DNA from: an uncultured Acidobacteriia bacterium
GTDB lineage: Bacteria; Acidobacteriota; Terriglobia; Bryobacterales; Bryobacteraceae
DNA: 55,149 nucleotides
Direction of reading: 5' to 3'
Assembly (NCBI GenBank): GCA_903882645.1
Contig: CAIRXZ010000275.1
Location: 1 to 55,149 of the forward strand
Positions 2,943 through 15,095 of the stretch are shown here, in pieces. Position numbers and translations under genes: made by a program. The notes beneath the pieces were generated by a model. The model saw only the letters and a list, made by a program, of their open reading frames with translations, had not been told where the DNA came from and ran no database searches. Every line of letters starts with the position of its first letter. Position 1 is the stretch's first letter.

Positions 2943-3573
2943 GCCCGAAGGGCGTGAGATAATAGCCCACGGCGCAAGCCGTCGGGAACGCAACCTGCGC
3001 TTGAGTAGCCCCGTTCAGGGGCGTAAGAACATGCCGCACACTTTCGCTTGTCTGCTCGTGCACGTGGTTTTTTCCACCAAGGATCGCGTACGTGATCTAT
3101 CGCCCGAGCTCGCGAGCCGCCTTTTCCCTTACATGGGCGGCATTGTCAGAGAGCTGAAAGGGGCGCCGCTCATCATCAACGGGCCAGCCGATCATGTTCA
3201 CCTGCTGTTGTCGATTCCGGCGACAGCTTCGATAGCCGCTCTGCTGCGAGTGCTGAAGACCAACTCTTCCCGGTGGGTTCACGAGCAGTTTCTGGCGCGG
3301 AAGCGCTTCGCCTGGCAAGCCGGGTACGGCGCGTTCACGGTGAGCGGCTCGAAATCGGACGACGTGAGGAGCTACGTCGCTTCGCAGGAGGCGCGTCACC
3401 GCAGAGTGTCCTTCCAGGAGGAGTTCCTCACCCTGCTGAAGAAACACGGACTGGAACACGACGCGGCGGACATTTGGGGATGAAGCTCTTCCGCCCCTGA
3501 ACGGGGCTGCGCGGGAGCCGGGTCTGGTTCCCGACGGCTCACGCCGTGGGCTATTATCTTTCGCCCTTCGGGC
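2943..3573. mobile_element. RAYT element with long inverted repeats
   Basis: A left arm at 2943-3027 and a right arm at 3488-3573 are imperfect inverted repeats of about 85 bases around a Y1 transposase gene. Each arm holds three small palindromes: GCCCGAAGGGC, ACGGC-loop-GCCGT and GCCCC-loop-GGGGC, as seen around REP-associated tyrosine transposases. The motif AATAGCCCACGGCG and its complement mark the two arms. No clear target-site duplication is visible. Whether the unit still moves is not known. Confidence 0.75.
3031..3483 (+). CDS. REP-associated tyrosine transposase (IS200-like, Y1 family)
   Basis: The 150-residue protein belongs to the Y1 transposase family, single-strand nucleases that cut and join DNA through a tyrosine. 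The HUH metal site is visible as DHVHLLL near residue 54, and the likely catalytic tyrosine lies in VRSYVASQEARHR near 117. The start HTFACLLVHVVFSTKDR matches the family's N-terminal strand, so the ATG at 3031 is preferred to the in-frame TTG at 3001, which lies inside the left repeat. The gene fills the space between the two inverted repeats. The frame is intact, so it may be active. Confidence 0.85.
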   Translation: MPHTFACLLVHVVFSTKDRVRDLSPELASRLFPYMGGIVRELKGAPLIINGPADHVHLLLSIPATASIAALLRVLKTNSSRWVHEQFLARKRFAWQAGYGAFTVSGSKSDDVRSYVASQEARHRRVSFQEEFLTLLKKHGLEHDAADIWG

Positions 3574-3677
3574 TCGGCATGCGACGCCGCTTGCCAGAAA
3601 TGCAGGAACTCCAAGCCGACGCTGTTTATCAGCGTCGTCCCAATGGGCGAAACTCGCCATTGAGTGCGTAGGACGAG

Positions 3678-4947: not shown

Positions 4948-4976
4948 TTGCATTTAGGGAATTGCTAAGCTACACT
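4948..4976 (+). promoter_or_regulatory. Candidate promoter for the ilv operon
   Basis: TTGCAT at 4948-4953 and TACACT at 4971-4976 are 17 bases apart and resemble -35 and -10 boxes. They lie just upstream of the leader peptide ATG at 4994, which would leave a very short untranslated region. This is pattern matching only; Acidobacteriota promoters are not well defined. Confidence 0.35.
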
Positions 4977-4993
4977 ATCCTTGAAGTTCTTCG

Positions 4994-5080
4994 ATGTTCG
5001 ACCTTCTTCCAATCCGGCCGGTTCGCAACGTCATTCCCATCGCTATTATTATCGTGGTCATCGTAGCCGGCCCCGCCTGA
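4994..5080 (+). CDS. ilvL: Ilv leader peptide (transcription attenuation)
   Basis: An open frame of 28 codons reads MFDLLPIRPVRN, then VIPIAIIIVVIVAGPA and a TGA stop. It contains seven isoleucine and five valine codons, with a run of eight consecutive Ile/Val codons near its end. The stop is followed by competing hairpins and a T-rich terminator before ilvB. This is the layout of ilv leader peptides in proteobacteria, where ribosome stalling at scarce Ile or Val codons lets transcription continue. No strong Shine-Dalgarno precedes the ATG. Function here is inferred from position, codon content and the hairpins. Confidence 0.85.
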   Translation: MFDLLPIRPVRNVIPIAIIIVVIVAGPA

Positions 5081-5117
5081 AGGCCAGCCGGAACCCAGGT
5101 TCCAAAGGCCATCGGCG
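5067..5117 (+). promoter_or_regulatory. Candidate antiterminator and pause structures of the ilv leader
   Basis: After the leader stop, CCGGC at about 5067 can pair with GCCGG near 5088 (pause-type hairpin). Alternatively GCCGGAACC near 5086-5094 can pair with GGTTCC near 5097-5102 and on to CGGC at 5113-5116, which would take away the left half of the terminator stem. The two options exclude each other, as an attenuator needs. The exact pairings need folding software. Confidence 0.55.
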
Positions 5118-5144
5118 GGGCGAAACCAGCCGATGGCCTTTTTT
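5105..5144 (+). terminator. Intrinsic terminator of the ilv attenuator
   Basis: AAGGCCATCGGC at 5105-5116 is perfectly complementary to GCCGATGGCCTT at 5129-5140. This makes a 12-bp stem with a 12-base loop, followed by a run of T to 5144 and further T-rich sequence. It lies between the leader peptide and ilvB, about 50 bases before the ilvB start, so it can only act as a regulated stop ahead of the operon. Confidence 0.88.
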
Positions 5145-5196
5145 GTTGTTTGGCGGCTTTCTTGGAGTGGAACGGAGTTTTGAGGGAAAACGGAAT

Positions 5197-6927
5197 ATGT
5201 CGGCGTTAATGAGCGGCGCGAGAATGCTGGTGGAGTGTCTGGTCCGGGAAGGCGTGGATTGCATGTTCGGGTATCCGGGCGGCGTGACGCTTCCCTTTTA
5301 CGACGTGCTTTACGACCGCCAGATCCGGCACATCCTGGTGCGCCACGAAGAGAACGCGGTTTTTGCCGCGGAAGGCTACGCGCGAGCCACGGGGAAGGTC
5401 GGGGTATGCTGCGCGACTTCGGGACCCGGCGCCACCAACCTGACCACCGGGCTGGTGGACGCGCTCATGGATTCCATTCCGATCGTCGCCATCACCGGGC
5501 AGGTCTCCACCATGCTGATCGGCAGCGACGCGTTTCAGGAGGCCGATACGTTCGGCATCACGCGCTCGGCCACCAAGCACAACTACCTGGTCAAGAACCT
5601 GGAAGACCTGCCGCGCATCGTCCATGAAGCGTTCTACGTGGCCTCGACCGGGCGGCCGGGACCGGTGCTGGTGGATATCGCCAAAGACGTCTTCCAGGGC
5701 CAGGGCCATTACCAGCCGGTGAGCTCGATTCACCTGCCCGGCTACAAGGTCTTCACCGAGGGCCACGCCGGGCAGGTCAAGCGCGCGGTCCAGTTGCTCC
5801 GGGAGTCTTCGCGCCCGCTGGTTTACGCGGGGGGCGGCATCCTGGCGGCGGGCGCCGCGGGGGAGTTTCGCGAGTTCGTGGAGCTGACCGACGCGCCCGT
5901 GGTGCAGACGCTGATGGGCTTGTCGGCGCTGCCCTCGGAGCACCCGAACTTCATCAGCATGCCTGGAATGCACGGCAGCTACGCAGCCAACATGGCCCTG
6001 ACCGAAACCGATCTGCTGATCGCCTTGGGCGTGCGCTTCGACGACCGGGTGACCGGGCGGCTGGCCGGCTTCGCTCCCCACGCCAAGGTGATTCACGTCG
6101 ATATCGACCCCGCCGAAATCGGCAAGAACCGCGCGCCCGAAGTGCCGATAGTCGGCGACCTGAAACGCGTCCTCCCGAAGCTGAACAAACTGCTATCCGA
6201 GGCCCCCTCCGCCGGCGAACGGATTTCCGAGGAGCGGCGCGCCTGGCGGCGGCGGATCCGGCAGTGGAAAGACGAGCACCCCTTTTCCGCGGAAACGTCC
6301 GATTCCGAAATCAAGCCGCAGAGCCTAATGCGCGAAATCGACCGCCTCTCCGGAGGCCAGGCCATCGTCACCACCGACGTGGGGCAGCACCAGATGTGGG
6401 CGGCGCAATTGATCCGCTTCAACGAGCCGCGTTTGTGGATCACCTCGGGCGGCCTGGGGTCCATGGGCTTTGGCGTACCGTCCGCCATCGGAGCGCAGTT
6501 CGCGCGGCCCGATAAGCTGGTTTTCGCCATCGTCGGCGACGGCGGTTTCCAAATGTCCATCCCCGAGCTTTCCACCATCGCCGCGAACGGCCTGCCGATC
6601 AAGATCGTCGTGATGAACAACGGATATCTCGGCATGGTCCGCCAGTGGCAGACCCTGTTCTTCAACAACCGGCTCTGCGGGGTCCAGCTCGATTGCTTCC
6701 CCGACGCGGAGAAATTGGCCGCCGCGTACGGATTCCAGGGCGCCGTCGTCGAGAAGCCTTCCGAGCTGGCGGCGGCGCTCGAGCGCGCCGTCAGGCATCC
6801 GGGCCCGTATCTGCTGAACGTGAAGGTCTCGCCGATGGAATGCGTGTACCCCATGGTGCCGGCCGGCGGCGCGATCAGCGAGATGGTTCTGGGACCGCCC
6901 CAAGCGGAGGCGGCGGCCGCGATATGA
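5197..6927 (+). CDS. ilvB: Acetolactate synthase, large (catalytic) subunit
   Basis: This thiamine-diphosphate enzyme condenses two pyruvates to acetolactate, or pyruvate with 2-ketobutyrate to acetohydroxybutyrate, the first shared step of valine, leucine and isoleucine synthesis. The 576-residue product has the catalytic Glu in RHEENAVFAAEGYARATGK near 50, the central FAD-type domain, and the ThDP motif GDGGFQMS ending in NNGYLGMVRQWQ near 445-480. The frame is open back to 4981, but the ATG at 5197 follows a GAGGGAAAA ribosome-binding site and starts the homology. The upstream part of the frame is the attenuator. ilvN follows after 13 bases. Confidence 0.95.
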   Translation: MSALMSGARMLVECLVREGVDCMFGYPGGVTLPFYDVLYDRQIRHILVRHEENAVFAAEGYARATGKVGVCCATSGPGATNLTTGLVDALMDSIPIVAITGQVSTMLIGSDAFQEADTFGITRSATKHNYLVKNLEDLPRIVHEAFYVASTGRPGPVLVDIAKDVFQGQGHYQPVSSIHLPGYKVFTEGHAGQVKRAVQLLRESSRPLVYAGGGILAAGAAGEFREFVELTDAPVVQTLMGLSALPSEHPNFISMPGMHGSYAANMALTETDLLIALGVRFDDRVTGRLAGFAPHAKVIHVDIDPAEIGKNRAPEVPIVGDLKRVLPKLNKLLSEAPSAGERISEERRAWRRRIRQWKDEHPFSAETSDSEIKPQSLMREIDRLSGGQAIVTTDVGQHQMWAAQLIRFNEPRLWITSGGLGSMGFGVPSAIGAQFARPDKLVFAIVGDGGFQMSIPELSTIAANGLPIKIVVMNNGYLGMVRQWQTLFFNNRLCGVQLDCFPDAEKLAAAYGFQGAVVEKPSELAAALERAVRHPGPYLLNVKVSPMECVYPMVPAGGAISEMVLGPPQAEAAAAI

Positions 6928-6940
6928 CGAGGGGGAAGAC

Positions 6941-7513
6941 ATGCGTCAAGTGATTTCACTGCTGCTCGAAAACAAGCCCGGCTCGCTGATGCGCGTCACC
7001 GGAGTGCTGAGCCAGCGAGGCTACAACATCGAGAGCCTCACGGTCGGCCGCACGCTCGATCCCGAGGTGTCGCGCATGACCATCGTGGTCGACGTGGATA
7101 GCGCGCTCTGCCAGCAGGTGATCAAGCAGATCAACAAGCCCGTCAACGTGCTCCAGGCGACCGACCTGACCGATGCGCCGAAGGTGGTCCGCGAATTGGC
7201 GCTGGTGCGCGTCCGCACGGCGCAGGGGTCGCGCGGGGCGCTGCTGAAGGAAGCCGAGATCTTCGGCGGGCGCGTGGTGGATTCCTCCACCGAGGGCTTC
7301 GCCATCGAGGTGACCGGCGCCCCGGAGAAACTCAACGAGTTCATCGATGTCATGGGAACCTATGGGGAGATCGACGTCACGCGCTCGGGCGCGGTGGCGA
7401 TCGCGCTGGAGGCGCGAAAACTCAGGTTGCAGCCGCCGGTGGAAAGACAGCTTTCAGCGGTCAGCGTTCAGCTTTCAGCTAACCCGTCTGAGGCTGAGGG
7501 AGTTGGCGGCTGA
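6941..7513 (+). CDS. ilvN: Acetolactate synthase, small (regulatory) subunit
   Basis: The 190-residue regulatory subunit binds valine through its N-terminal ACT domain (residues 1-75, with NKPGSLMRVTGVLSQRGYNI) and activates the large subunit; a second domain follows to about 165. Family members usually end near 160-175 residues. Here the last 25 or so residues (RQLSAVSVQLSANPSEAE) are encoded by a palindromic intergenic repeat that has run into the reading frame, so the tail is probably not functional. GGGGGAAGAC precedes the ATG. Confidence 0.93.
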   Translation: MRQVISLLLENKPGSLMRVTGVLSQRGYNIESLTVGRTLDPEVSRMTIVVDVDSALCQQVIKQINKPVNVLQATDLTDAPKVVRELALVRVRTAQGSRGALLKEAEIFGGRVVDSSTEGFAIEVTGAPEKLNEFIDVMGTYGEIDVTRSGAVAIALEARKLRLQPPVERQLSAVSVQLSANPSEAEGVGG

Positions 7514-7603: not shown

Positions 7604-8644
7604 ATGTCGAAACGTTATTACGAAGCGAACGGAAATCTAGACTATCTGAAAGGGCGGACCGTCGCCATCGTCGGATACGGAAGCCAGGGCCACGCGCACG
7701 CGCTGAACCTGCGCGATTCCGGCGTGGACGTGGTGGTCAGCGAGGCGCCCGGCAGCCCGTCGTGGGCCAAGGCCGAAGCGGCCGGACTGAAAGTCATGAC
7801 CACGCCCGAGGCCGCCAAGGCCGGCAACGTCATCATGATCCTGGTTCCGGATCATGTCCAGGCCGCCGTGTACAACCGCGACATCGCCCCGCACATGACC
7901 GCGGGCAAGACCCTGATGTTCGCCCACGGCTTCAACGTCCACTTCAAACAGATCGCGCCTCCGCCGGACATCGACGTGTCGATGATCGCCCCCAAGGCGC
8001 CCGGCCACCGCGTTCGCGAGTTGTTCATCGAGGGCGTGGGCGTGCCGGCGCTGGTGGCGGTCGAGCAGAACGCCACCGGAGAGGCCCTCGAGCGCGCGCT
8101 GGCTTACGCGCTGGCCCTGGGCTGCCTGAAGGCGGGCGTGATCGAGACCACCTTCCGCGAAGAGACCGAAAGCGACCTGTTCGGCGAGCAGGCCGTGCTC
8201 TGCGGCGGCGCGAGCGAGCTGATCCGGGCCGGCTTCGAGACCCTGGTGGCGGCCGGCTACGCGCCGGAAATCGCCTATTTCGAGTGTCTCCACGAGTTGA
8301 AGCTGATTGTGGACCTCATCCAGGAAGGCGGCCTCGCGTACATGCGCTTTTCGGTCTCGGATACCGCCGAATACGGCGACTACACGCGCGGACCGCGCAT
8401 CGTCAACCAGCAGACCCGCGCCGAGATGCGCAAGATTCTCTCGGAAATCCAGTCCGGCGCGTTCGCCAAGGAGTGGATTGAAGAGAACCGGTCGGGCCGG
8501 AAGAACTTCCTGGCCATGCGCGAAGCCGCGCGCCATCAGCCCGTCGAAGAGGTGGGCCGCGAGCTGCGCGAGATGATGCCCTTCCTCAAGAAGAAGAAGG
8601 AAGTGGGCGTGCCGCAGGACGTGGAAGCGGCCGCCAAGAAGTAG
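7604..8644 (+). CDS. ilvC: Ketol-acid reductoisomerase
   Basis: This enzyme isomerises and reduces acetolactate or acetohydroxybutyrate with Mg2+ and NAD(P)H. The 346-residue length marks the short class I form. Residues 22-35 hold the Rossmann motif [14 protein letters not shown]. The cofactor loop reads SEAPGSPSW and keeps two serines, which fits NADPH use. The C-terminal knotted domain holds the metal-binding acids, with [11 protein letters not shown] near 185 and the ECLHELKLI helix. The ATG at 7604 follows TTAGGAGCACAC. It lies between ilvN and cimA in the same operon. Confidence 0.96.
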
Positions 8645-8757: not shown

Positions 8758-10371
8758 ATGAGAATCTTCACCTTCGATACGACGCTCCGGGACGGGACGC
8801 AAGGCGAGCTCGTCTCTTTTTCCGTGGAGGACAAGCTTCTCATCGCGCGGAAGCTCGACGAGCTGGGCATCGACTACATCGAAGGCGGCTGGCCCGGCTC
8901 CAATCCGAAGGACAAGGAATTCTTCGCCCGGGCCGCGGAGTTGAAGCTCGGCCACGCCAGGCTGACCGCGTTCGGCTCGACGCGCCTCGCCAAGAACCCG
9001 GTGGAAGAGGACCGCAGCGTGCTGGCGCTGGTGGAGGCGGGCACGCCGGCGGTCTCGGTTTTCGGCAAGTCGTGGGACCTTCACGTCCACCGCGCGCTGG
9101 GCATCTCGAACGATCTGAACCTGGCGCTGATTTCCGAAACGGTGCGGTTTCTCAAGCGTCACGGCAAGGAAGTGATCTACGACGCCGAGCATTTCTTCGA
9201 CGGTTACCTGGCCAATCCGGATTACGCGCTGCGCACTCTCGAAGCCGCGCGCGCCTCCGGAGCGGACGTGCTATGCCTCTGCGACACCAACGGCGGCACG
9301 CTCACCAACCGGGTGGCGGAAATCGTGGCCGCGGTGCGCGGCCGCTTCGGCGGGGCAATCGGCATCCACCCGCACAACGATTCGGACCTGGCGGTGGCCA
9401 ACGCCCTGGCGGCGGTGGAGGCGGGCGCCACCCACGTGCAAGGCTGTCTGAACGGATACGGCGAGCGAACCGGCAACGCCAACCTGGCGTCCATCATCGC
9501 CAATCTGGAATTGAAGCTCGGCCACGAAACCATCGGTCCCGGGAAGCTGGCGACGCTGGCTTCGGCTTGCCGGTTCATCGCGGAGCTGGCCAACCTGCCG
9601 CTGCCGAACGACCGGCCCTTCGTGGGCAAGAGCGCCTTCGCGCACAAGGGCGGCATCCATGTCAGCGCGGTGCTGAAGGATGCGGCGACCTACGAACACA
9701 TCCGGCCGGAGACCGTGGGCAATCGCCAGCGGGTGCTGGTAAGCGATCTCTCGGGCCGCGGCAACGTTCTGTTCAAGCTGCAACAGCACGGCCTGGCGGA
9801 CCGTCTCGACGAGAACGCGCGCCGCGACCTGCTCGAGCGCATCAAGCAGATGGAATACGAGGGCTACGAGCTGGAAGCCGCCGAGGGTTCCTTCGAGCTG
9901 CTGGTGCGCGAGGCGCTGCATCCGGGCGCGCATTTCTTCGAGGTGGAGAGCTACGAAGTCTCGTCGCGCGCCGGCGGCGCGGAGGGCGAATCGCACACCC
10001 TGGCCACCGTCACGCTGCGCGCGCAGGGCGTGGTTCAGTGGGCCACGGCCACCGGGCACGGCCCGTTCCATGCGCTGCATCAATGCCTGCGGAAGTGCCT
10101 GTCCAAGCTTTACCCGGAGGTCGCCGGCGTGCATCTGACGGACTACAAAGTCCGCGTGCTCGACTCGCGCAAGGGCACGGCCGCCAAGGTGCGGGTGTTG
10201 ATCGAATGGAGCGATCACCGCCGGAGCTGGTCCACCGCCGGCGTGTCGGATAACGTGATCGAGGCGAGTTGGAAGGCGCTGGTCGACGCGATCCGGCTGG
10301 AGCTGATGCGCCTGATGGAGCGCGACGGCGCCGTGGAGACACTCGCGGAAGATACGGCTTTGGGAGTGTAG
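8758..10371 (+). CDS. cimA: (R)-citramalate synthase
   Basis: CimA condenses pyruvate and acetyl-CoA to citramalate, the first step of a threonine-independent route to 2-ketobutyrate and isoleucine. The 537-residue protein has the DRE-TIM catalytic start DTTLRDGTQGE at 7-17, the metal-binding HPHND near 204, and a C-terminal LeuA-type allosteric dimer domain from about 385. The TTLRDGTQGE form and the length are those of citramalate synthase rather than LeuA (2-isopropylmalate synthase). Placement after ilvBNC supports a role in isoleucine supply. The stop lies 8 bases from the stop of the convergent res gene. Confidence 0.92.
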   Translation: MRIFTFDTTLRDGTQGELVSFSVEDKLLIARKLDELGIDYIEGGWPGSNPKDKEFFARAAELKLGHARLTAFGSTRLAKNPVEEDRSVLALVEAGTPAVSVFGKSWDLHVHRALGISNDLNLALISETVRFLKRHGKEVIYDAEHFFDGYLANPDYALRTLEAARASGADVLCLCDTNGGTLTNRVAEIVAAVRGRFGGAIGIHPHNDSDLAVANALAAVEAGATHVQGCLNGYGERTGNANLASIIANLELKLGHETIGPGKLATLASACRFIAELANLPLPNDRPFVGKSAFAHKGGIHVSAVLKDAATYEHIRPETVGNRQRVLVSDLSGRGNVLFKLQQHGLADRLDENARRDLLERIKQMEYEGYELEAAEGSFELLVREALHPGAHFFEVESYEVSSRAGGAEGESHTLATVTLRAQGVVQWATATGHGPFHALHQCLRKCLSKLYPEVAGVHLTDYKVRVLDSRKGTAAKVRVLIEWSDHRRSWSTAGVSDNVIEASWKALVDAIRLELMRLMERDGAVETLAEDTALGV

Positions 10372-10379
10372 GGCCGGCG

Positions 10380-13124
10380 TTAAGCGATCAGTTCGCGGAG
10401 GCTCTTGACGACCTTGAAACTGACTTGCTCGAACTGGTTGAAATGGCGCTTGCCGCACTCAATCTTGAGCCGTTCCAGGGGCCGCAGAAGCGAGAGGCTG
10501 ACGGGGCCCTTAACGCCCGTGTCCTTGGTTTCGGCCACAAAGTAGAGCGTCCGGTCGTTCCTGTAAACCAACGCCCAATCCGGGGTATATCGGCCAACCG
10601 GCGTTTCGATCTCGAACCATCGCGGCAACTTGATGTAGAAGTGAACGTCGTCGTTGTTCTCGCAAGCCTGGGCGAAAGCCTTTTCCGGCCCGGACGCGGA
10701 ATCAATCGCGATGTGGCTGAACAGGGTCTTTTCCTGCTTGTGAACGGCAACCACGTTCGCCTCGAACAACTCCGTCAGGTCGGCCTCTTCGAAGCGGCGC
10801 ATCTCGTAGACAAGGTCGTCCACCTTCACGTACTCCACGCCCTCGACGAGCAGCGCGCGCTTGGTGTCGTTGATCGCTCCGGCCGCTTGATCGATGAACG
10901 CTTGTGGGTTGTTGATGGCGTCTTGCAGTCGGCCGGATTTCAGCAGGATGAATGCCACCGTTGACTTGGACAGCGATGTCTTGCCCTGAACCTGCGCGAT
11001 GAAGTCGGGCATGACATAGTGCGAATCGGCAACCTGGGTTCGCCGTCTAACCTCGACGCCGGCGACGCCCTGGCCCGTAATCCGAAGATCCGCCCGCGCG
11101 ATCACCACCTTTGGGCGCTCGATTGGGGGCAGCCCGCGGATGGCGGCGACGGCGTCGTCGATCAACTCGCCGGTGGCGTACCTCACCCCGTAGCGAGTGC
11201 GTTCGCGGATGCGCTCCCACAAATCCAGGAAGTTCCGATCCGCCTCGTAGCCCTTCTTCAGCCGGACGGTGACCTTATTCCGCTCGTTGTGGACCATCTC
11301 CTTCTTGAAGGCAATGCCTTGTTCTTCCATCTCGGTCTGGAGCTCCCGCGCGAAATCCTCGAAGCTCTCGTTGGCGACGATGGTTAACTGGTTGATCGTG
11401 CCGTCGAGGATGCGCTCGCCTTTGTCGTTCACGCACAGCCGCAAGCCCCGGCCGATTTCCTGACGCTTCTTCAACTGGGAGGAGATTTCGGCCAGCGTGC
11501 AGATCTGGAAGACATTCGGATTATCCCAACCTTCGCGCAGCGCGGAATGGCTAAAGATGAACCGCAGAGGCTCCGCCGGATCGAGCAGACGCTCCTTGTC
11601 GCGCATGATTAGCGCGTAGGTGTCGTTGTCGTCCTGGCTCCCCTTTTCGGTCGAATCCTTGAGGCGCCCCTGCTTGTCCTGGGAGAAATAGCCGTTGTGG
11701 GCCTGCGCGGCGTCGAACGGATACAACCCGGCATATTCCGGCTTCGCCCGGTAGTGCTCGAAAACCTCTTCGAACCACAGCGCGAACTTGCCCTTGACGG
11801 GGGAGCCGCCCGCGGCATAGGCGCGGTAATTGGCCACCCGGTCGACGAACAGCACCGACAACACCTTGATGCCAAGGGGCTTGAGCCGCGCTTCTTTCTC
11901 GAAGTGCCGCTGCACTGTTTCGCGGATCTGCAAGCGGAGAAGCGTTTCGGCCGGCGTCCCATGAGGTTGGCCGGAGCGAACTTTCACGTCGTTAGCGAAC
12001 TCGACATACTCTTCGCCCGCGTCGATTGCGTTAACGATGAAGCCGTCTTTGTACGTCTCGCGCTCGCCCGAGAGCCGGTAAAGGTCGTCGCCGTTCCTGA
12101 TAACCACGCTCTTCTTGGCGGGACCGCTTGCGGTGTTGACCCAGATTTTGATACGGGCGGAAATGGCCCTCCTGCTGGTCCGGAAGCCCTCCAGTTCCAC
12201 GAAAGCCTGATTGGCGTCGAACTCGTCCGACACACCGATCACGCCGATCTGCTTGACCCGCCCTTCCCTCAAGGCCCGGACCGGATCGAGCCGGTAAATC
12301 AGGTTGTAGGCGTTGCGCGGCGTCGCCGAGTAGCGCAGCGTGCAAAGCGGGTTGAGGCGGGCCAATGCCTGCTTGCGAATATCCGTCTCGAAGTTCTGCG
12401 GCTCATCGACAATCACGATTGGGTTAGCGGCCTGAATGAACTCGATAGGACGCAAGCCGGTTTCCCGAAGCTGGTTGATAACGTTGCCCTTGGATTTCTT
12501 CCCCTTCCTCCCGCCATTTCCATTGCCGCCGTTGGCGCCGTTCCCGTTCGCCCCGTTGCTGTCCTTGGAGAAGGAGTCGATGTTGATGACCAGGATTTCG
12601 ATGGCGTTGGACAGGGCGAAATTCCGAAGCGCGGTCACCTTCCCGGAGTCATAGACCGAGAAGGCGCAAGACTCGTGGTTGTAGAGGCCCTGGAGGTGAG
12701 CGTGGGTGATCTTGAGGTTCTTGAGCACGCCTTCCCGGATGGCGACGCTGGGCACGACGACGACGAATTTCTTGAAGCCGTACTGCTTGCTCAACTCGTA
12801 GATCGTGCGCAGGTAGACGTAGGTTTTGCCAGTGCCGGTCTCCATTTCCACGGTGAAGTTCGGAAACCCGAATGCCTCGCCGGTGTCCACCGCAAGGGGG
12901 ACCAGCGCCTCGGACCGCGGCAGGGAATTCGCCGCCTGCACCTTGCGGCAGTTCTCCAGCAACTGCTCCTCAGTGAGCAAGAGACGGTTGGCCAAACCCT
13001 TCTCGGTGAGATTGAGGCCGAAAAAATCGGTTCCGGCCGCCTGCGGTTGCCCTTCGAATAATTCCACCACGCTGGCGATTGCGTCAAGCTGGTACTGTTG
13101 GTTGGCGGAGAATTGCAGTTCCAT
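10380..13124 (-). CDS. res: Type III restriction enzyme, Res (helicase/nuclease) subunit
   Basis: Res subunits move along DNA using ATP and cut when two unmodified sites meet. The 914-residue protein has a superfamily 2 helicase core: Walker A METGTGKT near 94-101, DEPQ at 240-243, and RYSATP near 264-269 (motif III). The C-terminal region holds a PD-(D/E)XK nuclease: PDWALVY, then AETK about 20 residues later. A Gly/Asn-rich low-complexity insert at about 189-212 (NGANGNGANGG) lies in a loop between helicase motifs. It follows mod by 9 bases, so the two form an operon. Confidence 0.93.
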   Translation of the reverse strand: MELQFSANQQYQLDAIASVVELFEGQPQAAGTDFFGLNLTEKGLANRLLLTEEQLLENCRKVQAANSLPRSEALVPLAVDTGEAFGFPNFTVEMETGTGKTYVYLRTIYELSKQYGFKKFVVVVPSVAIREGVLKNLKITHAHLQGLYNHESCAFSVYDSGKVTALRNFALSNAIEILVINIDSFSKDSNGANGNGANGGNGNGGRKGKKSKGNVINQLRETGLRPIEFIQAANPIVIVDEPQNFETDIRKQALARLNPLCTLRYSATPRNAYNLIYRLDPVRALREGRVKQIGVIGVSDEFDANQAFVELEGFRTSRRAISARIKIWVNTASGPAKKSVVIRNGDDLYRLSGERETYKDGFIVNAIDAGEEYVEFANDVKVRSGQPHGTPAETLLRLQIRETVQRHFEKEARLKPLGIKVLSVLFVDRVANYRAYAAGGSPVKGKFALWFEEVFEHYRAKPEYAGLYPFDAAQAHNGYFSQDKQGRLKDSTEKGSQDDNDTYALIMRDKERLLDPAEPLRFIFSHSALREGWDNPNVFQICTLAEISSQLKKRQEIGRGLRLCVNDKGERILDGTINQLTIVANESFEDFARELQTEMEEQGIAFKKEMVHNERNKVTVRLKKGYEADRNFLDLWERIRERTRYGVRYATGELIDDAVAAIRGLPPIERPKVVIARADLRITGQGVAGVEVRRRTQVADSHYVMPDFIAQVQGKTSLSKSTVAFILLKSGRLQDAINNPQAFIDQAAGAINDTKRALLVEGVEYVKVDDLVYEMRRFEEADLTELFEANVVAVHKQEKTLFSHIAIDSASGPEKAFAQACENNDDVHFYIKLPRWFEIETPVGRYTPDWALVYRNDRTLYFVAETKDTGVKGPVSLSLLRPLERLKIECGKRHFNQFEQVSFKVVKSLRELIA

Positions 13125-13133
13125 GATCGACTT

Positions 13134-15095
13134 CTAGATGCAGGTGAACCGCACCTCGGCATCGCGGCAATGCAAGTCCAGGTTGGTCTTCAGCTCATCG
13201 CTGTCATGGAAGACGGCGTCGATGGCCACCACTTCGCGGGGCTTGAGGGCGAGAAGCGGCTCGATCATCTCGAGGGTGAACCGCTCCAGGATGAAAACCA
13301 TGGCCCGATGATCGATCGCATAGACGGGCGCCCCGCCGATATCGAGCCTTTCAATGGGAACGGTGAGCGGCTGGCCGAATTTCAGAAGAAGCTCGAACAG
13401 CATATCTTCCGGCGCGGCGCCCGGCTTCTCCCCGGTTACGAACATCTGGAGTTGCGCCGCCAACGCTTCAGCGTCCTCAATGCCGTCGCCGCGCCACTGT
13501 TTGAAGTTGGAGGGGGCAAGGAGGAAGGACTTGAAGCCGAGGCCAATTGGCGCCGGGTTCGCCAGGTTGGCTGAAGAAACTGTGCGATTGACGACTCCGC
13601 GAATGCGCTCGCGGCCAATCTCGGAAATCAGCTTATGGCCGGTCTTGAAGCCCTCGGAGTCAGGGTCGCAAGCTTCCGGAAGCTGGATACAGATTACCTG
13701 CCGCCGCTTGTGGTCCCTGCTGTTCAGCGATTCGACAGCCTCGAAGGTAGTACAGGAGCCCGCAAAGAAGTCGAAGACTGCTTCACCATCCTTAAGCACG
13801 AAATCGAAGATCCCAGCCAGTAGGTCCACCGGCTTTGGATTTGTGAAAACCTGACGCTGGTCGAAGATCGTCGCTAGGTCATTGGCGCCAGTGCGGCTGT
13901 CCAGGTGAACGACGCTGGAAAGCTTCCCTTCGTAGTCATCAAGGTACTCCTTTATCTGGATGATTTGGGTTTCGTCCTCGCCATAAAGGATCTGGTCGGC
14001 GGCGATGAGTTCTTGCATTCGATCTTTCGGGTAGCGGTACCCGTTCGCTGGCCGGACACACGCCTGGTTCGTCTTAGGGTGGATCACGTCGTACTGATAT
14101 CCGCCGGGCTTGGGATTGTGCACCTTCCTGCTTCCGGTGTACACGCCGCGCGTGTCCACCCGGTTGTAGTGAGTGATCGGCTGCAAGCTTTCTTCGTTGC
14201 CCTTGATAAAGCGGCGAAGATCGGCTTGAATTCGATCAACATCCTCACCAAAGTTACTCGCTAGCCGGTTGTACTCGGCAAGAATCAACAGCTTCGCTGC
14301 GGATGAATTGTCCTTCCAAACAGGATCGGCGGCTGCTTTCTGACGGCAATAGCAAACGAGGTACTCATGCTCGACAGCGATCTGGGTCGGATTGTTGTCA
14401 GTGGCTCCCTTCCACACGATAACGCCCAGGAAGTTCTCCTCGCCAAACACCTCGTTCATGAGCGAACGCAAATTGTGCATCTCGTTGTCGTCGCAGGAAA
14501 CGAAGATCACACCGTCCTCGCGCAAGAGGTTTCGCGCGATATACAGCCGGGGCAGCATCATCGAGAGCCAGTTGCTGTGATAATGGCCGTTTTCCTTGGC
14601 ATTCTTGCGGAAGAAGCCTTCGCGCATGAGGCTGCCGTCGTCCATCAGGTCGTTGATGCGCCTCAGGTAGTCTTCCTTGCTCTCCTGGAACCGGTCGGGG
14701 TAGATGAAGCTGTCGGAACCCGTGTTGTAGGGCGGGTCGATGTAGATGAGCTTGACCTTGCCGAAATACGCCTTCTGCAGGACCTTCAACGCCTCCAGGT
14801 TCTCCCCCTCGATGAAGACATGCTCCGCCTCATCGAAGTTGACGGACAGATCGCGCTGCGGCCGAAGGGTCGCCGTCGTCGGGGTTTGAAGCACCTTGTA
14901 GGCATCTGCCTTGCCCGCCCAGGTCAGGGCATACCGCTCACCGGCCTCGACAACGCTCTCCTCTCCCACCACCCGTCTCAGGGCGGCAATATCGAGTCTG
15001 CCCTCGGTAAAGGCCTCCGGCACAACGGCCATCAACTCCCGGCGCTTTTCCGAGACCACGTTGAAGGATCGTCCAAGCTCGGTGTTCTCGTTCAT
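13134..15095 (-). CDS. mod: Type III DNA methyltransferase, Mod subunit
   Basis: Mod recognises the target site and methylates adenine at N6; it also directs Res. The 653-residue product has the beta-class order: DPPYNTGSD (motif IV) at 120-128, and later DFFAGSCTT (motif I, AdoMet binding) at 442-450. The usual motif I sequence is DFFAGSGTT; here the second Gly is Cys, which may lower AdoMet binding. The target-recognition region is between the two motifs. The DNA sequence it recognises cannot be read from the protein. Confidence 0.92.
   Translation of the reverse strand: MNENTELGRSFNVVSEKRRELMAVVPEAFTEGRLDIAALRRVVGEESVVEAGERYALTWAGKADAYKVLQTPTTATLRPQRDLSVNFDEAEHVFIEGENLEALKVLQKAYFGKVKLIYIDPPYNTGSDSFIYPDRFQESKEDYLRRINDLMDDGSLMREGFFRKNAKENGHYHSNWLSMMLPRLYIARNLLREDGVIFVSCDDNEMHNLRSLMNEVFGEENFLGVIVWKGATDNNPTQIAVEHEYLVCYCRQKAAADPVWKDNSSAAKLLILAEYNRLASNFGEDVDRIQADLRRFIKGNEESLQPITHYNRVDTRGVYTGSRKVHNPKPGGYQYDVIHPKTNQACVRPANGYRYPKDRMQELIAADQILYGEDETQIIQIKEYLDDYEGKLSSVVHLDSRTGANDLATIFDQRQVFTNPKPVDLLAGIFDFVLKDGEAVFDFFAGSCTTFEAVESLNSRDHKRRQVICIQLPEACDPDSEGFKTGHKLISEIGRERIRGVVNRTVSSANLANPAPIGLGFKSFLLAPSNFKQWRGDGIEDAEALAAQLQMFVTGEKPGAAPEDMLFELLLKFGQPLTVPIERLDIGGAPVYAIDHRAMVFILERFTLEMIEPLLALKPREVVAIDAVFHDSDELKTNLDLHCRDAEVRFTCI

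Follow-up and report, generated by a model that had tools for sequence, protein, structure and literature searches.

A putative ribosome-mediated attenuator with two exclusive hairpins upstream of ilvBNC-cimA in Bryobacterales

How does an acidobacterium control its ilv operon? Acidobacteriota are abundant soil bacteria whose gene control is, to our knowledge, little known. In Proteobacteria and Actinobacteria, some ilv operons are known to be attenuated through a leader peptide; for Acidobacteriota, we found no report of this in the open literature searched. Here, we study the region 5' of ilvB in a stretch of 55,149 nt from an uncultured member of the Bryobacteraceae (the whole stretch is called the window in the following), for which an earlier note, made from the letters alone, had proposed control by ribosome stalling. 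That reading is supported by conservation, by covarying helices and by control codons that follow the gene where cimA or leuA stands alone, such that we consider it very probable (about 0.92) that transcription of ilvBNC-cimA is attenuated by the ribosome through two mutually exclusive hairpins.

Operon, promoter and leader frame

The region comprises the following features.

4948..4976, + strand: predicted promoter, -35 box TTGCAT (4948-4953), 17-nt spacer, -10 box TACACT (4971-4976)
4994..5080, + strand: leader peptide gene, 28 codons, stop codon TGA at 5078-5080 (from the sequence; same frame in relatives)
5045..5065, + strand: control codons IIIVVIV, whose amino acid identity shifts with the gene controlled
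5197..6927, + strand: ilvB, acetolactate synthase large subunit (TIGR00118, above its cut-off)
6941..7513, + strand: ilvN, acetolactate synthase small subunit (TIGR00119, above its cut-off)
7604..8644, + strand: ilvC, ketol-acid reductoisomerase (TIGR00465, above its cut-off)
8758..10371, + strand: cimA, citramalate synthase of the isoleucine branch (TIGR00977, above its cut-off)

Operon genes were named with curated NCBIfam models, with ATG 5197 as the start of ilvB; the resulting order ilvB-ilvN-ilvC-cimA agrees with the cimA-containing ilv operon that had been noted before. Past cimA, two large ORFs (10380-15095, - strand) resemble Res and Mod of a type III restriction-modification system, going solely by visual inspection of their translations. 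On the other side (3001-3574, + strand), an IS200-like Y1 transposase (Pfam Y1_Tnp) has an Acido-Lenti-1 RNA some 50 nt behind it, which scores exactly at the Rfam gathering score and may belong to the mobile element.

The leader frame translates to MFDLLPIRPVRNVIPIAIIIVVIVAGPA and holds 7 Ile and 5 Val codons within 28, as the earlier note had described. Its count of eight consecutive Ile/Val codons is to be corrected, i.e., the longest unbroken run is seven (5045-5065), and 8/9 codons are Ile or Val if one Ala is counted across. Relatives have the same frame with a C-terminal stretch rich in Ile/Val. To assess chance, we generated 5000 dinucleotide shuffles of 4950-5196 and scored 9-codon windows of ATG-ORFs with 10-60 codons: the observed 8 Ile/Val codons compare with a maximum of 5 in any shuffle. 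A codon-position test of leader coding is marginal (p 0.053). Short ORFs are common, and thus ORF and hairpins could be taken for chance or merely for the terminator of an upstream gene; the shuffle test, the conservation given below and a conserved promoter directly 5' of the leader speak against this reading, and as the comparison refutes it, we give it next to no weight. The locus has, at the level of its sequence, the translatable frame with control codons for an operon product that is found in two-hairpin ribosome-mediated attenuators.

Selective tRNA charging theory predicts biased control codons (PMC1183508). Within the control stretch of the relatives' leaders, we count ATT 291 and ATC 167 times for Ile as well as GTA 197 and GTG 22 times for Val, compared to ATC 68 and ATT 9 (of 79) and GTG 80 and GTA 3 (of 145) in the window's operon. 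ATT and GTA are thus favoured in the leaders and both rare in the window's ilv genes; low leader folding could be an alternative cause of the A/T-ending codons, and related leaders also share ancestry.

The motif TTGCAT-N16..18-TANN[CA]T precedes 115 ilvB leaders of relatives, with a spacer of 17 nt in 106 of them. A simple promoter scan missed the window's copy because its sequence departs from TTGACA/TATAAT. From this promoter, the window's RNA is expected to start near 4984, which would make its 5' UTR roughly 10 nt long. Among the 115 leaders, the first in-frame ATG/GTG is located 6-7 nt past the -10 box in 46 and 11-19 nt past it in 51, while starts within 20 nt of the -10 box occur in just 9/230 cases for the other two frames. 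A Shine-Dalgarno-like word is present in 12/59 leaders whose start lies at least 10 nt past the -10 box. Because the promoter is usually 6-20 nt before the leader start, about half of the relatives' ilvB leaders appear to be leaderless, provided transcription begins as far from the -10 box as is usual.

Terminator, antiterminator and their covariation

Downstream of the control codons, folding and comparison yield four further features.

5070..5077, + strand: antiterminator 5' strand GCCCCGCC, within the Gly-Pro-Ala codons, partner 5114-5121 (fold, covariation)
5082..5110, + strand: inner antiterminator stems 5082-5085/5107-5110 and 5090-5094/5099-5103 (fold of the window's genome only)
5104..5144, + strand: intrinsic terminator, 13-bp stem, 12-nt loop, T-run 5139-5144 (sequence, fold, covariation in relatives)
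5016..5072, + strand: possible anti-antiterminator 5016-5023/5065-5072 (fold of the window's genome, without conservation)

The terminator stem pairs AAAGGCCATCGGC (5104-5116) perfectly with GCCGATGGCCTTT (5129-5141) and ends in six T (5139-5144). The perfect stem with T-run reported in the earlier note therefore stands, with its length extended from 12 to 13 bp; a simple terminator scan missed it because of the 12-nt loop. The antiterminator 3' strand is GGCGGGGC (5114-5121), and GGC 5114-5116 of the terminator's left arm is common to both hairpins.

Region 4990-5200, for which exclusive structures had been predicted, is more stable than 200/200 shuffles (z -3.2) and indeed provides them. RNA 5064-5127, the part up to the terminator loop that a ribosome stalled at about Ile20 would leave free, folds as antiterminator with -36.5 kcal/mol, which consumes most of the terminator's left arm. 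When the right arm is added, the terminator becomes the more stable form (-44.0), and with a ribosome at the stop codon just the terminator remains (-31.5 for 5091-5150). Since the terminator wins once its right arm exists, the choice depends on the ribosome position while the loop is transcribed. We also folded 142 elements (i.e., leader, antiterminator and terminator) in two ribosome positions and obtained the antiterminator in 139/142 and the terminator in 142/142. Folding thus gives an antiterminator and a terminator that exclude each other, the former with a 5' strand that is masked by a ribosome at the stop codon and free upon a stall at the control codons.

The terminator lies between leader and first gene, as in two-hairpin attenuators, and its distance to ilvB across elements has a median of 56 nt. 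This position, clear of the start codon, bears on the question whether the leader instead acts via ilvB translation or Rho-dependent termination, without a role for an intrinsic terminator. Such action is known for other leader peptides, e.g., the mycobacterial cys leaders (PMC1262725), but given a strong terminator with T-run in all 142 folded elements and its covarying stem, we regard it as improbable here.

A conserved anti-antiterminator, i.e., the 1:2 hairpin of the trp/his type, was sought over 132 leaders and is absent (mean z -0.03). The three-hairpin trp/his model should therefore not be assumed; in untranslated RNA of the family, read-through is the expected outcome.

For the terminator stem, 93% standard pairs and 20 two-sided changes are observed, which none of 500 shuffles reaches. 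The antiterminator is 91.5% paired in the first alignment with few changes, such that its covariation is hard to judge there because it is nearly invariant. We thus compared, for 145 elements, the leader tail with its own downstream segment. The mean longest helix is 6.99 bp, compared to 6.38 (sd 0.06; maximum 6.53 in 200 trials) for permuted partners, where the permutation leaves shared ancestry in place. Exact compensations are numerous, e.g., CGCCGCC/GGCGGCG, GCCTGCT/AGCAGGC, CCTCGCC/GGCGAGG and CTCCCGCC with GGCGGGAG, as well as GCCCCGGC with GCCGGGGC in the sister family.

Leaders often end in Gly-Pro-Ala because these codons form the antiterminator RNA strand. No other part of the peptide is as well conserved, which might also be expected if the peptide sensed something within the ribosome tunnel and arrested translation. 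Yet the RNA partner of these nucleotides co-changes while the amino acids vary (GPA, GPG, GAA, GPV, APA), and arrest at the very end of the peptide would mask the antiterminator strand; an arrest peptide is accordingly very unlikely.

Distribution and re-coded copies

Some form of the arrangement is present at each of the 30 nearest ilvB loci, although one has Ns in the leader and another an altered tail. With 27 of these loci, we built a covariance model, which matches 134/150 genomes of the window's family and 73/76 genera, nearly always before ilvB; 107 of the 134 genomes lie outside the 27 used for the model. The absence of leader frame or hairpin in close relatives, which would have spoken against the earlier note, is thus not what we observe: leader and hairpins are present in about 90% of the family's genomes. 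Comparison thereby shows the leader frame with its bias in amino acids, the two helices, and the promoter with its spacing. At least some misses are contigs broken in or before ilvB, and a true absence before ilvB is found in genus g155 and in G224. In genus g155 (L257, L262, L263), ilvB lacks leader and terminator but still has a TTGCAT promoter; its short 5' UTR is a different one that contains an inverted repeat, and its control may have changed.

A draw over the whole class places the element in 63/67 genomes of the window's family, in three genomes from a second family within that order, and only rarely elsewhere. A phylum-wide search of 396 genomes gave nothing convincing outside the window's family, where the single match covered the terminator only. 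Most ilvB genes obtained from a scan of named genomes were distant, the records near the element being Acidobacteriia and Bryobacterales. One strong match (L046, G179:C36) is in a genome assigned to another family; its IlvB nests inside the window's family, and we treat it as lateral transfer or mixed assembly. Weak model matches before TPR-protein genes (L252-L255) cover the terminator part without a leader and were set aside. At these four loci, from several family genomes, a short ORF and the TPR-protein gene flank a terminator-like hairpin, upstream of which the same word (GGCTGACC..GCACT.GGAGGCC) recurs.

A natural test of codon sensing is provided by copies at other genes. In one clade, cimA is outside the operon, and each of six stand-alone cimA genes has an element copy 37-57 nt upstream. 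Within the last 18 codons, their leaders (e.g., MLTFLSIGIIIGAGITSPA, MLLIIQGILLISVAITGPA) have 3-5 Ile, 0-1 Val and 2-5 Leu codons. For four ilvB leaders from this clade, we count 0-1 Ile and 4-7 Val, compared to on average 3.6 Ile and 4.3 Val for 123 other ilvB leaders. This split matches the pathway, since citramalate synthase serves isoleucine alone, and is the best evidence for codon sensing that comparison of sequences offers. In an IlvB tree, the cimA-split genomes form one clade (support 0.996), i.e., the split represents one evolutionary event.

Further copies precede leuA (G401; seven Leu codons in the leader), ilvA, encoding threonine ammonia-lyase (G383; two Ile codons close to the tail), an ilvN paralogue (with five Ile codons, in genus g9) and an ACT-domain gene (G005). 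Among non-split genomes, eight leaders have a single Ile codon; the codon-to-gene rule is therefore a tendency. We lean towards one ancestral attenuator that spread in Bryobacterales as a portable module (ilvB, cimA, leuA, ilvA, ilvN paralogue), with Gly-Pro-Ala antiterminator tail and terminator kept, the control codons rewritten for the amino acid of each gene, and about half of the ilvB cases leaderless.

The same pattern bears on a metabolite- or tRNA-binding RNA (riboswitch or T-box) with a coincidental ORF, which would equally suit exclusive structures and a terminator. Here, the Ile/Val/Leu pattern tracks the downstream gene, the segment from stop codon to terminator is too variable for a conserved binding core, and Rfam searches for T-boxes and known riboswitches at the gathering as well as a relaxed threshold gave nothing credible at the locus. 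Such an RNA is thus highly improbable.

Proposed mechanism and known systems

For the attenuator, we propose the following course of events. The RNA would start about 10 nt before the leader ATG, judging from the promoter. With an ample supply of charged Ile- and Val-tRNA, translation would proceed to the stop codon (5078-5080), where the ribosome would mask 5070-5077, such that the terminator 5104-5144 could form and RNA polymerase would stop, i.e., premature termination is predicted near 5144. When Ile or Val is short, the ribosome would stall at about 5045-5059 (around Ile20). With its front about 13 nt past the A-site codon, it should leave 5070-5077 free to pair with 5114-5121 before the right arm of the terminator is made, and ilvBNC-cimA would be transcribed. 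Stalling and the amino acid response are our inference from this arrangement.

The work adds an acidobacterial element with a testable function, a covariance model able to detect it, and unannotated small genes in more than 100 genomes. The natural re-codings tie control codon to gene and bear on how attenuators change specificity.

The leader peptides of enterobacterial ilvGMEDA and ilvBN contain many control codons for the products of their operons, and exclusive hairpins plus a terminator come after them, as in the window. They differ in leader sequence and operon order, and the window's group has a very short or no 5' UTR. Both leaders are listed in PMC1183508. Likeness alone is no proof of function, since an ilvB leader of this type in Streptomyces coelicolor was unaffected by mutation of its presumed control codons, according to a citation in PMC1262725. 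The ilvB-OMG motif, an RNA before ilvB in several phyla, has a uORF rich in branched-chain amino acid and Thr codons (PMC10272879); the Rfam scan gave no ilvB-OMG match at the locus, where presence of that model in Rfam 15 is unconfirmed.

For the Mycobacterium tuberculosis ilvB1NC leader, a two-state model like the one proposed here has been described, with a ribosome at the stop codon that masks the antiterminator in favour of the terminator, and a stall on LVVI codons that permits the antiterminator (PMC13236596). Leader sequence and phylum are different, and the accessible part of that report mentions no Gly-Pro-Ala antiterminator strand (PMC13236596). The ilvBNC attenuator of Corynebacterium glutamicum (ilvB-II motif region) differs by its leader MTIIRLVVVTARRLP without a Gly-Pro-Ala end, by a third hairpin that is not conserved in the window's family, and by the window's operon including cimA. 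It is alike in the leader with Ile/Val/Leu codons before ilvBNC (PMC11857589; PMC10272879), its RNA starts one nucleotide from the leader start codon, i.e., it is near-leaderless (PMC11857589), and three nucleotides at the boundary belong to its antiterminator as well as its terminator (PMC11857589; PMC10272879), which corresponds to GGC 5114-5116 in the window.
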